In this document: positions 29,133-62,376 of the stretch, in pieces
Layout: each line of letters opens with the position of its first letter
Position numbering within the stretch: position 1 is the first letter of the stretch
Source: an uncultured Eubacteriales bacterium
GTDB lineage: Bacteria > Bacillota > Clostridia > Oscillospirales > Ruminococcaceae
Length of the DNA stretch: 64,000 bases
Direction of reading: 5' to 3'
Assembly: GCA_900319075.1 (NCBI GenBank)
Contig: ONMZ01000003.1
Span: forward strand, 1 to 64,000
Notes under the pieces: generated by a model
Seen by the model: only the letters and a program-made list of their open reading frames with translations
The model's database searches: none
Told to the model about the DNA's origin: nothing
Position numbers and translations under genes: made by a program

Positions 29133-29594
29133 ATGAAGGCAATAATCCAGAGAGTGACACGGGCGTCGGTTACCGTTGACGGAAAAGTCGTTGGAAAGAT
29201 CGACAGCGGTTTTATGATACTTTTCGGTGCTGCAAAAGACGATACCGATGCAGACTGCGAAAAGCTGGCGGATAAGATATCAAAGCTGCGGATATTTCCC
29301 GATGAGAACGGCAAGACGAACCTCTCCATAAACGATGTGGGCGGAGATATTCTGGCAGTTTCCCAGTTTACCCTGCTTGCCGACTGCCACCACGGAAACC
29401 GCCCGTCATTCATCTACGCAGGCGATCCCGACGAGGCAAACCGTCTGTTTGAACTGTTCAAGACCAAGTGCGGGGAGAAAATAAACGGCAAGGTCGAAAG
29501 CGGCATCTTCGGCGCATCAATGCAGGTCGAGCTTGTAAACAGCGGACCTTTCACCATTTATCTTGAATGCAGGAATGGAGAGATACTTGCATGA
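29133..29594 (+). CDS. dtd: D-aminoacyl-tRNA deacylase
   Basis: A 153-residue enzyme that removes D-amino acids, and glycine from mischarged tRNA-Ala, by a substrate-assisted mechanism. Both active-site signatures are present: SQFTL (about 73-77) and NSGPFT near the C-terminus, which carries the Gly-cisPro pair. AGGAGAG precedes the ATG by seven bases. It overlaps the next gene as ATGA. Confidence 0.96.
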   Translation: MKAIIQRVTRASVTVDGKVVGKIDSGFMILFGAAKDDTDADCEKLADKISKLRIFPDENGKTNLSINDVGGDILAVSQFTLLADCHHGNRPSFIYAGDPDEANRLFELFKTKCGEKINGKVESGIFGASMQVELVNSGPFTIYLECRNGEILA

Positions 29595-30737: not shown

Positions 30738-30767
30738 ACAAAAAAAGATGCCGTTTTCACGACATCT
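30738..30767 (-). terminator. Terminator of the tRNA operon
   Basis: An eight-base stem with one G-T pair (30760-30767 with 30746-30753) and a seven-T tail on the minus strand, right after the last tRNA. Confidence 0.85.
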
Positions 30768-30772
30768 CTGCA

Positions 30773-30846
30773 TGGAGCGGGTTGTAAGAATTAAACTCAC
30801 TTCTCCTTTCAGGAAGAAAGGTATTCTAACGTTGAACTAAGCCCGC
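30773..30846 (-). tRNA. tRNA-Gly(UCC)-like, divergent
   Basis: The 74-base sequence folds into a complete cloverleaf with encoded CCA: acceptor of seven pairs with one C-A mismatch, four-pair D stem, five-pair anticodon stem, four-base variable loop and five-pair T stem. The anticodon reads TCC, for glycine GGA codons. The D loop reads AACGTTA and the T loop TTTAATT, so G19 and C56 are both replaced by T and their tertiary pair is lost. G57 is A, and position 37 is a pyrimidine. It may be decaying, or a specialised tRNA such as those used in cell-wall peptide synthesis in staphylococci. It is last in a five-tRNA operon. Confidence 0.7.
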
Positions 30847-30849
30847 ATA

Positions 30850-30922
30850 AGCGGCTTACGAGGCTCGAACTCGCTACCTCCACCTTGGCAAGGTGGCGCT
30901 CTACCAGATGAGCTAAAGCCGC
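30850..30922 (-). tRNA. tRNA-Gly (anticodon GCC)
   Basis: A 73-base cloverleaf with a perfect seven-pair acceptor stem (GCGGCTT/AAGCCGC), canonical GGTAGAGC D-arm and GTTCGAG T loop. The anticodon is GCC. CCA is not encoded. Confidence 0.95.
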
Positions 30923-30939
30923 ATATGGATAAAATGAAA

Positions 30940-31012
30940 TGCCTCCGGACGGAATCGAACCATCGACACGGGGATTTTCAGTCCCCTGCTCTACCTACTG
31001 AGCTACAGAGGC
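30940..31012 (-). tRNA. tRNA-Phe (anticodon GAA)
   Basis: A 73-base canonical cloverleaf beginning GCCTCTG, with GAA in the loop ACTGAAAAT and GTTCGATT in the T loop. CCA is not encoded. Confidence 0.95.
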
Positions 31013-31031
31013 AAATCTCATAAAAGAGAAA

Positions 31032-31108
31032 TGGCGACCGGAATGGGGCTCGAACCCACGACCTCTAGCGTGACAGGCTAGCGTTCTAACCAGCTGAACT
31101 ACCCGGCC
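31032..31108 (-). tRNA. tRNA-Asp (anticodon GTC)
   Basis: A 77-base tRNA including encoded CCA. The anticodon loop is CTGTCAC, with GTTCGAG in the T loop and discriminator G, as expected for aspartate. Confidence 0.95.
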
Positions 31109-31215: not shown

Positions 31216-31291
31216 TGGTGGGGACAACAGGGATCGAACCTGTGACCCTCTGCTTGTAAGGCAGATGCTCTCCCAGCTGAGCTATACCCCC
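31216..31291 (-). tRNA. tRNA-Val (anticodon TAC)
   Basis: A 76-base tRNA including encoded CCA. The anticodon loop is CTTACAA, with discriminator A. It is the first tRNA after the promoter. A 107-base spacer separates it from tRNA-Asp. Confidence 0.95.
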
Positions 31292-31324: not shown

Positions 31325-31353
31325 ATTATACTACATCACAGGACATTTGTCAA
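31325..31353 (-). promoter_or_regulatory. Strong promoter of the tRNA operon
   Basis: Perfect TTGACA at 31348-31353 and TATAAT at 31325-31330 on the minus strand, spacer 17. Confidence 0.92.
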
Positions 31354-59887: not shown

Positions 59888-61105
59888 TTATTTTGCAACT
59901 GCCTTGTGGAATACTTTTTTGCCTTTTTTGATAATGACCGCATCCGCCATATCTATCAATGTCTTGGGGTCGGTTATCTTTTCGTCGTTCACACTCACGC
60001 CGCCCTGTGTAACAAGCCTTCTTGCTTCACCGTTTGACGGGCACAGTCCGCACTTTACAAGCAATGTAAGAATACCTATCTTTCCGCCTTCAAGGTCTGC
60101 GGCAGCTATCTCGGTGGTAGGCATATCATCGCTCACGCCGCCTTTTGCAAATATAGCCTTTGCGGCATCGTCAGCTTTTTTAGCCTCCTGCTCACCGTGA
60201 ACGAGCTTTGTCAGCTCAAAAGCGAGAAGCTCCTTTGCCTTGTTCAGCTCTGCACCCTGCAAGGTCTTTTCCATCTCCTCTATCTGCTCGATAGGAACAA
60301 ATGTAAGCAGCTTGAGGCACTTGATAACGTCAGCGTCATCAACATTTCTCCAGTACTGGTAAAAATCATAAGGCGAGGTCTTTTCCGGGTCGAGCCATAC
60401 TGCACCGCCAACGGTCTTACCCATTTTCTGTCCCTCGGAATTGAGCAGCAGAGTTATCGTCATAGCGTGAGCATCCTTGCCCAGCTTCTTTCTTATAAGC
60501 TCTGTGCCGCCCAGCATATTTGCCCACTGGTCATCGCCGCCGAACTGCATATTACAGCCGTATTTCTGGAACAGCATATAAAAGTCATATGACTGCATTA
60601 TCATGTAGTTGAACTCAAGGAAAGTCAGTCCCCTTTCCATTCTCTGCTTATAGCACTCAAAGGAAAGCATCTTATTCACCGAGAAGCAAGCGCCAACTTC
60701 ACGCAGAACATCAATATAGTTCAGATCAAGCAGCCAGTCGGCATTGTTTACCACCATTGCCTTGCCGTCGGAGAAATCTATAAAGCGGCTCATCTGCTTT
60801 TTGAAACACTCAACATTATGCTCGATAGTTTCCTTGGTAAGCATCTTTCTCATATCGCTCTTTCCCGAAGGATCGCCTATCATTCCCGTTCCGCCGCCCA
60901 GCAAAGCGATAGGCTTATTGCCTGCCATTTGCAGTCTTTTCATAAGGCAAAGCGCCATAAAGTGACCAACGTGCAGGCTGTCGGCTGTGGGGTCAAAGCC
61001 GATATAGAAAGTTGCCTTTCCGTTGTTTATCATATCGCTGATCTCTTTTTCGTCTGTTACCTGAGCTATAAGCCCACGTCTTACAAGTTCTTCATAACAA
61101 GTCAT
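59888..61105 (-). CDS. tyrS: Tyrosyl-tRNA synthetase
   Basis: A 405-residue class I synthetase that charges tRNA-Tyr. The HIGH-type box is LHVGHFMAL (about 40-48), the tyrosine pocket contains [22 protein letters not shown], and the KMSKS loop reads KMGKT. A C-terminal S4 domain follows ([12 protein letters not shown]). GGAGG lies upstream of the ATG. Only 19 bases separate it from the membrane protein gene before it, with no own promoter, so it relies on the T-box leader at 62107-62376. Confidence 0.97.
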
Positions 61106-61124: not shown

Positions 61125-61592
61125 TTATTTGATTTGGTTTTTATGCTGAAGATGTATCCCTATATGCCCGATCCCGAGGATAACAGTCGCTATCATCATC
61201 GGGATATTTTTTCCGTAAACGCCCAGAAGAAAGAAAGCAAGCACCGGCAAGGTCGCTCCCGCAACGGGGATACCAAGTATTGAACTGTACATATCCGCCA
61301 TTGTCTTTTCGCTTGTGAAATAACGTATCCAGTATATCTCATAAAGAATCATTATTGCAAATGCCATGACAAGAAAAGCGCTCCACCCGCTGATGCGGAT
61401 ATTAAAATCACTGAATATAAGGCAAAGGGTGCTTACCAGCGCCTCGCCTATACGTTCAAGTGTGAGCAGTATCCTGTTTTCCTTCGGGGCGTATTTTTCG
61501 TAATCCTTCGGCTGATTCTTGCTCCAGATAATATTAGGGACAAAGAGCATTATCAGAAAAACAAGTCCCACATACGAAAATCCAAAATGCAT
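61125..61592 (-). CDS. Four-helix membrane protein in the tyrS operon
   Basis: A 155-residue protein with about five hydrophobic segments (5-20, 50-62, 70-90, 105-127, 132-150), and [20 protein letters not shown] on the first loop. I do not recognise a named family. AAGGAG lies seven bases before the ATG. It sits between the PNPOx-like gene (16 bases) and tyrS (19 bases) and must share their transcript. Confidence 0.72.
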
Positions 61593-61608: not shown

Positions 61609-62085
61609 TTATTTCTCGTTAACGAGCTTTCCTGTCATGTGCTCTATCTCAAGCTCCATAACGACAGTCGCTCTTGCACACTTTTCGATCTCTTTGTCGA
61701 TATAGCTTTCATCGTTTGTGAACTTATAGCTGAGCTGTCTGCAAAGCTCGATGGCTCTGTCAAAGTCTTCAACTATCCTCATCCGGCCGAAGACCACTAC
61801 GCTTTTTACGTTCAGCGCCCAGTCTCCCTCTTTCAAAAAACCCTTATCGTATACTGTAAAACAAACCTTGTCGCAGGACTTTACCGCATCAACACGGTGT
61901 CCGATCTTCCCTCCGTGAAAGTATATTTTACCGTCCTGCTCGCAGTAGTAATGGTTTATGGGCACACAATACGGGTATCCGTTGTCCCCTGCCATTGCAA
62001 GGACGCCTCTTGTTTCACTTTTAAGAAGATCTATGCACTCCTGCCGGCTGATTGCTTGTTTTTGACGTCTCATTTCCCGGAACAA
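61609..62085 (-). CDS. Pyridoxamine 5'-phosphate oxidase-family flavoprotein
   Basis: A 159-residue split-barrel FMN protein. I chose the TTG at 62085 because AAAGGG lies nine bases upstream and the resulting LFREMRRQKQ start matches the usual MFREMRR of the family; the ATG at 62073 is too near any ribosome site. YCVPINHYYCEQDGKIYFHGGKIGHRVDAV is the FMN-binding core. These proteins reduce small molecules or quinones and are rarely real PNP oxidases. It is the first gene after the tyrosine T-box. Confidence 0.85.
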   Translation of the reverse strand: MFREMRRQKQAISRQECIDLLKSETRGVLAMAGDNGYPYCVPINHYYCEQDGKIYFHGGKIGHRVDAVKSCDKVCFTVYDKGFLKEGDWALNVKSVVVFGRMRIVEDFDRAIELCRQLSYKFTNDESYIDKEIEKCARATVVMELEIEHMTGKLVNEK

Positions 62086-62106
62086 TCCATCACACCCTTT
62101 CATGTA

Positions 62107-62376
62107 TAAAAAAACCTCTGATAAGCCTTCGCTCATCAGAGGACGATCAGATCGTGGTACCACCTCATTTTGTCTGCTTTTCACAAAACAGACCTTTGAA
62201 GTTGACTTTGTCAACTCCGCCCTGTAACGTGGGCAAACCGCACCCGACTACGTTATCACCGGGTGTGCTCGGGGATGTATTCACCAGCCGCCTGCGTACT
62301 CCCTTTCACCAGCCGAGAGCTCTCTGAACGCCCGGAACAGCCGCTTACTTGTTCCCGTCATCACATTTCACATATC
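62107..62376 (-). promoter_or_regulatory. Tyrosine-specific T-box riboswitch
   Basis: A leader of about 270 bases on the minus strand. Stem I has the AGTA bulge at 62349-62346, a CAGAGAG apical segment and GCTGGTGAA repeats. The specifier loop reads GTGAA, then TAC (62279-62277, a tyrosine codon), then A. The T-box AATGAGGTGGTACCACG lies at 62169-62153, with the U-G-G-U that pairs with an ACCA end. A terminator stem with seven Ts follows (62142-62107). Uncharged tRNA-Tyr should allow readthrough into three genes ending in tyrS. Confidence 0.9.

Follow-up and report, generated by a model that had tools for sequence, protein, structure and literature searches.

The window, that is, the whole stretch of 64,000 nucleotides analysed here (positions 1 to 64,000 of contig ONMZ01000003.1, from an uncultured Eubacteriales bacterium of the Ruminococcaceae), carries on its minus strand a short tRNA operon that closes with a non-canonical tRNA-Gly(UCC), hereafter the odd tRNA. 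The operon is bracketed by a promoter-like and a terminator-like site, to be read against a chance expectation, at looser thresholds, of about one site of each kind in the operon stretch. The features of the locus are the following.

31325..31353, minus strand: sigma-70 promoter-like site, TTGACA-17-TATAAT, upstream of the operon (12/12 matches)
31216..31291, minus strand: tRNA-Val(TAC), first gene of the operon (ARAGORN)
31032..31108, minus strand: tRNA-Asp(GTC), same operon (ARAGORN)
30939..31013, minus strand: tRNA-Phe(GAA), same operon (ARAGORN)
30850..30922, minus strand: tRNA-Gly(GCC), canonical, same operon (ARAGORN)
30773..30846, minus strand: odd (non-canonical) tRNA-Gly(UCC) with encoded CCA, a proposed non-proteogenic glycyl donor, present in 22/29 genus genomes
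30827..30833, minus strand: its D loop, AACGTTA, with G18 kept and U19 replacing G19 (GG absent in 12/12 distinct Ruminococcus sequences)
30810..30816, minus strand: its anticodon loop, CUUCCUG, with Y37 and G38 and a possible C32-G38 pairing (32 and 38 paired in the predicted fold)
30789..30795, minus strand: its T loop, UUUAAUU, with U56 and A57 replacing C56 and G57 (sequence reading)
30744..30769, minus strand: intrinsic terminator-like site directly 3′ of the CCA of the odd tRNA (sequence scan)

In standard numbering, the D loop of the odd tRNA reads A14 A15 C16 G18 U19 U20 A21, the anticodon loop C32 U33 U34 C35 C36 U37 G38 and the T loop U54 U55 U56 A57 A58 U59 U60. This numbering bears out the initial annotation, made from the letters of the window, which had reported T (U) at positions 19 and 56, A57 and a pyrimidine at 37; equally correct was its placing of the gene at the end of a tRNA operon, where it is the last after Val-Asp-Phe-Gly(GCC). 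The reported cloverleaf of 74 nucleotides, encoded CCA included, with anticodon UCC also stands, but it is not perfect as had been claimed, since C6 and A67 are mismatched and 10-25 is a G-U pair. The Rfam tRNA model gives the odd tRNA 43.7 bits versus 63.9-69.0 bits for the four other tRNAs of the operon, and ARAGORN leaves it uncalled; this program recognised just 4 of the 21 copies of the odd tRNA examined. Its predicted fold is more stable than those of 200/200 dinucleotide shuffles (z -2.85).

The host assembly is 86.65% complete and yields 43 tRNA matches. Its other glycine tRNAs are a canonical Gly(UCC), a Gly(CCC) and two Gly(GCC), one in each of two operons; the second operon, Val-Asp-Phe-Gly(GCC)-Cys, has no odd tRNA. 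ARAGORN leaves uncalled a further, partial tRNA-like match in this genome (G000:C27:960-1014, L046), which scores 31.8 bits. Within the window, a D-aminoacyl-tRNA deacylase (dtd) gene lies at 29133-29594 on the plus strand, some 1.2 kb away from the odd tRNA; within the stretches compared, it adjoins the operon solely in the closest relatives, so that the adjacency is treated as chance and a functional link drawn from it is rejected.

The odd tRNA belongs to a genus and not to a single genome. BLAST finds it in 20 of 28 other Ruminococcus genomes and in none of 32 genomes outside. A covariance model trained on 11 distinct copies matches 22 of the 29 genus genomes, the own genome included, at 88.8-97.7 bits, the next match standing at 75.1 bits; among the genus genomes with a completeness of 90% or more and a contamination of 5% or less, 18/20 have it. 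In a sample of 247 genomes of the family, searched under stricter filters, such scores are reached only by the four genus members in it, followed by a match at 79.4 bits; the best 26 outside-genus family matches with reported loci are without exception canonical tRNAs, having GG in the D loop and a CUUCCAA anticodon loop. Another 390 sampled genomes of the class give no match at E <= 1e-18, a threshold below which a more diverged relative might score. In at least 10 genomes, R. bicirculans included, the gene that lies ahead of the operon has a homologue at the same place, which fits inheritance at a single locus.

Seven of the 29 genus genomes have no odd tRNA, and true loss is accepted for one of them, with the reserve of a misassembly. 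In that genome (G006, L253 1501-1600) only the first 18 bases of the gene remain, and a terminator-like stretch comes next. The six others are not counted as losses: in G004 the contig stops within the neighbouring Gly(GCC); in G007 a Gly(CCC) near a contig end stands beside an apparent tRNA-Phe end, so that the locus is rearranged or unassembled; and in G011, G018, G019 and G025 the neighbouring Gly(GCC) found no match. As side observations, ARAGORN calls no Phe gene in the operon copy of G006, and the copy of G028 (L226, L066) carries a single additional base, either in the variable loop or in the T stem.

Where the gene is present, it is strongly constrained. Over six close species the odd tRNA is 98.6-100% identical, versus 54-82% for two operon spacers of the same species (readable in 4/5 comparisons) and 15-50% for the 100 bases downstream. 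In the alignment of 11 sequences, four of the five T-stem pairs have changed on both sides. The count of such doubly changed cells for the entire structure is 21 versus 5.5 in shuffles, a value reached by 0/500 of them, and 94.8% of cells are paired versus 86.7% in shuffles. The three main measures of covariation are reached by 0/500 shuffles, and two weaker ones (pairs and pair types) by 12 and 41 of 500. The CUUCCYG anticodon loop is found in 11/11 of these sequences, which were aligned before any pattern was used. Taken together, conservation and covariation indicate that the odd tRNA is a maintained RNA under purifying selection and not a relic.

Outside the genus, counterparts were sought by an exact-pattern scan for tRNA-Gly(UCC) with Y37 and G38 across 84,980 species genomes; the pattern fixes positions 1-5 as well as 37 and 38, and departures from it are missed. 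The yield is 78 stretches, namely 57 from Staphylococcaceae (Staphylococcus, Mammaliicoccus and Macrococcus/Macrococcoides), 20 from Ruminococcus (R. albus and R. bicirculans among them) and one truncated ordinary tRNA. The last of these, from an Erysipelotrichaceae MAG (L208 4895-4931), retains GG in the D loop and joins the 5′ portion of a canonical tRNA-Gly(UCC) directly to an acceptor 3′ end, perhaps as the remnant of an attachment site. The parallel with staphylococcal tRNA-Gly species drawn in the initial annotation thus proves more specific than it was put there, the scan returning odd tRNAs from Staphylococcaceae and Ruminococcus only.

Since the exact-pattern matches from the 84,980 genomes hold no S. 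aureus or S. epidermidis record, likeness to the published S. aureus tRNAs rests on their described features. In the excerpted text of PMC4052509, the marks of the non-proteinogenic (NP) S. aureus tRNAs are the replacement of GG18-19 by UU or CU and weak A49-U65 and A51-U63 pairs. The fetched staphylococcal sequences fit this description, with C18 or U18 in 107/107, A49-U65 in 95/107 and A51-U63 in 104/107.

The comparison by position covers 107 distinct staphylococcal and 12 distinct Ruminococcus sequences, that of the window included. GG is absent from the D loop in both sets; in Ruminococcus G19 is lost in 12/12 and G18, and with it G18-U55, is kept in 9/12, unlike the staphylococcal C18 or U18. 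The standard 19-56 pair is absent from 12/12 Ruminococcus and 105/107 staphylococcal sequences, and A57 is found in 11/12 and 103/107, respectively. The canonical G51-C63 is missing from at least 11/12 Ruminococcus sequences (the register of G028 being ambiguous because of its extra base) and from 107/107 staphylococcal ones. A51-U63 itself occurs in 3/12 Ruminococcus sequences, and A49-U65 in 3/12. C32-G38 is present in all sequences of both groups, on the staphylococcal side by construction because positions 37 and 38 were set by the scan pattern. U73, G1-C72 and C2-G71 occur in 12/12 Ruminococcus sequences, positions 1-5 being fixed by the pattern. When each group is set against its own canonical tRNA, 14 columns have changed in both and 12 of these to the same new base. 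These counts are descriptive and have no test value: the canonical staphylococcal reference is a single sequence, 106 of the 107 sequences were used, one being set aside for its length, and some of the columns are paired or pattern-fixed.

Overall, the likeness comprises the UCC anticodon, a D loop without GG, the missing 19-56 pair, CUUCCYG with C32-G38, a mostly present A57, a weak 51-63, U73, for the most part A44 together with the U29-A41 and U30-A40 pairs and, less evenly, U10.U25 (10/12 Ruminococcus, 33/107 staphylococcal); a T loop starting with UGCAA, as in staphylococci, is also found in two Ruminococcus MAG copies (L170, L187). The groups differ in acceptor pairs 6-67 and 7-66 and at position 49, which is G in 8/12 Ruminococcus sequences versus A in 95/107 staphylococcal ones. 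They also differ in setting: in Ruminococcus a single copy closes, or nearly closes, a short Val-Asp-Phe-Gly operon, whereas in Staphylococcaceae a large tRNA cluster houses between one and four copies, arranged in tandem if there is more than one. Judged by these features, the nearest known relatives of the odd tRNA are the staphylococcal wall tRNAs. A looser likeness, by description, is to the Bacillus cereus pseudo-tRNA (tRNA-Other), which is said to be non-translational and to affect the cell wall when deleted (PMC3399842); however, tRNA-Other flanks a genomic island, whereas the odd tRNA is of the glycine type and part of a tRNA operon.

The reading preferred here, with a probability of roughly 0.6, is that the odd tRNA is a dedicated non-proteogenic glycyl donor that would escape EF-Tu and the ribosome and feed a FemX-like enzyme. 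The changed positions fall in the elbow (19-56 and 57), in the anticodon loop (37 and 38) and in the T-stem pair 51-63 that tunes affinity for EF-Tu. Glycyl-tRNA synthetase would charge this tRNA, in which the ends of the acceptor stem, U73 and C35-C36 are kept. The weak 51-63 pair and the lost elbow contact would then reduce binding to EF-Tu and to the ribosome, and the glycine would pass to the FemX-like aminoacyltransferase of the genus, to be added to the peptidoglycan precursor. From its sequence, the odd tRNA thus likely avoids the ribosome.

Published statements bear on several of these steps. Replacement of GG18-19 together with weak 49-65 and 51-63 pairs is consistent with the EF-Tu escape described for staphylococci (PMC4052509), where an S. 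aureus isoacceptor is charged, yet inefficiently recognised by EF-Tu (PMC8007984). D-aminoacyl-tRNA deacylase (DTD) is reported to edit Gly-tRNA, and U73 to protect Gly-tRNA from it, above all without the cover of EF-Tu and including the S. aureus NP-tRNAs (passages of PMC6097841); U73 may likewise shield the unescorted Gly-tRNA of Ruminococcus. The 32-38 contact affects A-site binding (PMC10853795). In addition, TruB requires U54, C56 and A58 (PMC6850298), so the 6/12 distinct Ruminococcus sequences with U56 may be without pseudouridine 55.

The candidate acceptor enzyme is a FemAB-family protein encoded in 29/29 genus genomes, one gene being found per genome. In the own genome it has 372 residues (contig C30, 32714-33832, minus strand). 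Its best solved match is the lipid II:glycine glycyltransferase of PDB entry 6snr (S. aureus FemX; E 8.2e-39), and Weissella FemX is matched as well (E ~1e-26). The profile match skips from about 238 to 298, and the protein seems, from this alignment, to be devoid of the helical arm of S. aureus FemX. It scores 139 bits with the NCBIfam FemX alanyltransferase model, far below the cut-off of 500, and the amino acid that it transfers is therefore not readable from sequence. S. aureus encodes FemX, FemA and FemB (PMC6428869), versus the single FemAB gene per Ruminococcus genome. The femAB neighbourhoods differ among the six genomes read and reveal no linkage to the odd tRNA; the search for FemAB in viral contigs found none. 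In the family, FemAB occurs in 106/247 genomes, and in 102/243 when the genus is left aside; in these 243 the covariance-model search finds no comparable tRNA in any FemAB-bearing genome. FemAB, being common where the odd tRNA was not found, can thus do without it.

The wall chemistry must also differ from the staphylococcal one. The MurE motif is DNPR in 5/5 genus genomes examined, and DNPR is a motif of mDAP-dependent MurE enzymes (PMC3829189). The diaminopimelate (DAP) epimerase DapF is found in 28/29 genus genomes, and the MurE of the genus looks, from its motif, diaminopimelate-specific. A staphylococcal-like lysine-glycine bridge is therefore unlikely, and the Ruminococcus system departs from that of S. 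aureus FemX both in its DAP-type MurE and in a FemAB seemingly without helical arm. Glycine on a diaminopimelate stem is known in other bacteria. The result lists of searches in openly licensed literature contain no report of glycine in Ruminococcus walls, on a diaminopimelate stem or otherwise, or of such a tRNA in Ruminococcus. As a side observation, a single open frame of 1348 residues (L260 1339-5385, own contig C58) encodes the large chain of carbamoyl-phosphate synthase with DapF as a C-terminal fusion; the DapF match lies within a frame of 1348-1384 residues in 24/28 genus genomes, the Pfam domain check covering the own genome only.

These data leave some room, though the case is unlikely, for a donor that serves not FemX but another Gly-tRNA-dependent enzyme of lipid, peptide or natural-product modification. 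With a stem peptide that looks DAP-type, an interpeptide bridge is less expected, and the many FemAB-bearing family members in which the odd tRNA was not found point the same way; the presence of FemAB throughout the genus, with a lipid II:glycine glycyltransferase as closest solved relative, is a weak counterpoint.

A part played mainly in regulation, for instance as an uncharged ligand by which a glycine T-box would report the glycine supply, is improbable. The window has a single T-box, which precedes a run of three ORFs:

62136-62370, minus strand: T-box leader (112.8 bits), upstream of the three ORFs
61609-62214, minus strand: first ORF
61125-61592, minus strand: second ORF
59888-61105, minus strand: third ORF, predicted tyrosyl-tRNA synthetase

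No T-box around femAB reached the cut-off in six genomes. Stem I of a T-box stacks on the elbow surface of the tRNA, and the loss of 19-56 removes this surface. However, the glyS T-box of S. aureus is reported to answer both proteinogenic and non-proteinogenic tRNA-Gly (Apostolidi 2015, as cited in PMC7583486).

That an ordinary translational tRNA merely tolerates a weak elbow is more improbable still. The UCC anticodon, the encoded CCA and the normal place in an operon would suit such a tRNA, but a canonical Gly(UCC) coexists with the odd tRNA in 22/22 carriers, the host included, G57 is lost in 11/12 distinct sequences in addition to the constant loss of G19 and of the 19-56 pair, and the anticodon loop has exchanged A37 for Y37 next to a possible C32-G38 pairing. 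Finally, decay of a redundant copy, or a tRNA pseudogene, which the C6.A67 mismatch, the low Rfam score and the truncated remnant of G006 might suggest, is hardly credible and is rejected, relaxed constraint being absent in view of the near-identity of the gene next to far more variable spacers, the compensatory changes in the T stem and the invariant CUUCCYG loop.

The initial annotation had left the choice between a non-proteogenic or regulatory tRNA and a recently decaying gene. Its non-proteogenic alternative is favoured by the second, canonical Gly(UCC) of all carriers and by conservation in related genomes, which display no random loss (22/29), while decay falls away except for the stub in G006.

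Whether the two groups share an ancestral odd tRNA was approached with a tree of about 74 positions in which 20 of the 107 staphylococcal sequences, chosen for diversity, represent their group. With all columns, a joint clade is better by ~13 log units, but separate origins are not rejected, having AU p values of 0.23 and 0.27; with the pattern-fixed columns removed, the AU p values are 0.50 for the joint clade and 0.33 and 0.08 for separate origins. When the tree is left unconstrained, Gly(GCC) of staphylococci is what the staphylococcal copies cluster with. Acceptor stems resemble the own tRNAs of each group, so transfer is not claimed despite the staphylococcal-like T loop start of L170 and L187. 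A tentative reading, rather doubtful at this stage, is that Staphylococcaceae and Ruminococcus independently reached the same tRNA-Gly core, that is, a broken 19-56 contact, CUUCCYG with C32-G38, A57 and a weak 51-63, which Ruminococcus would use for a wall chemistry with glycine on its diaminopimelate stem. Should such convergence be true, there would be a defined RNA code by which glycine is diverted from translation.

In the excerpts of PMC4052509, PMC8007984, PMC9976931 and PMC4810233, the example given of dedicated non-proteinogenic glycyl tRNAs is S. aureus, and Ruminococcus is not named. With a second and distant group, it can be asked which changes divert an aminoacyl-tRNA from the ribosome, the positions shared by both groups being candidates and those that differ not. 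The low recognition of the known copies by ARAGORN shows that annotation can miss such tRNAs. For the organisms themselves, the prediction is that some product, perhaps the cell wall of Ruminococcus from rumen and gut, is modified with glycine in a tRNA-dependent way.
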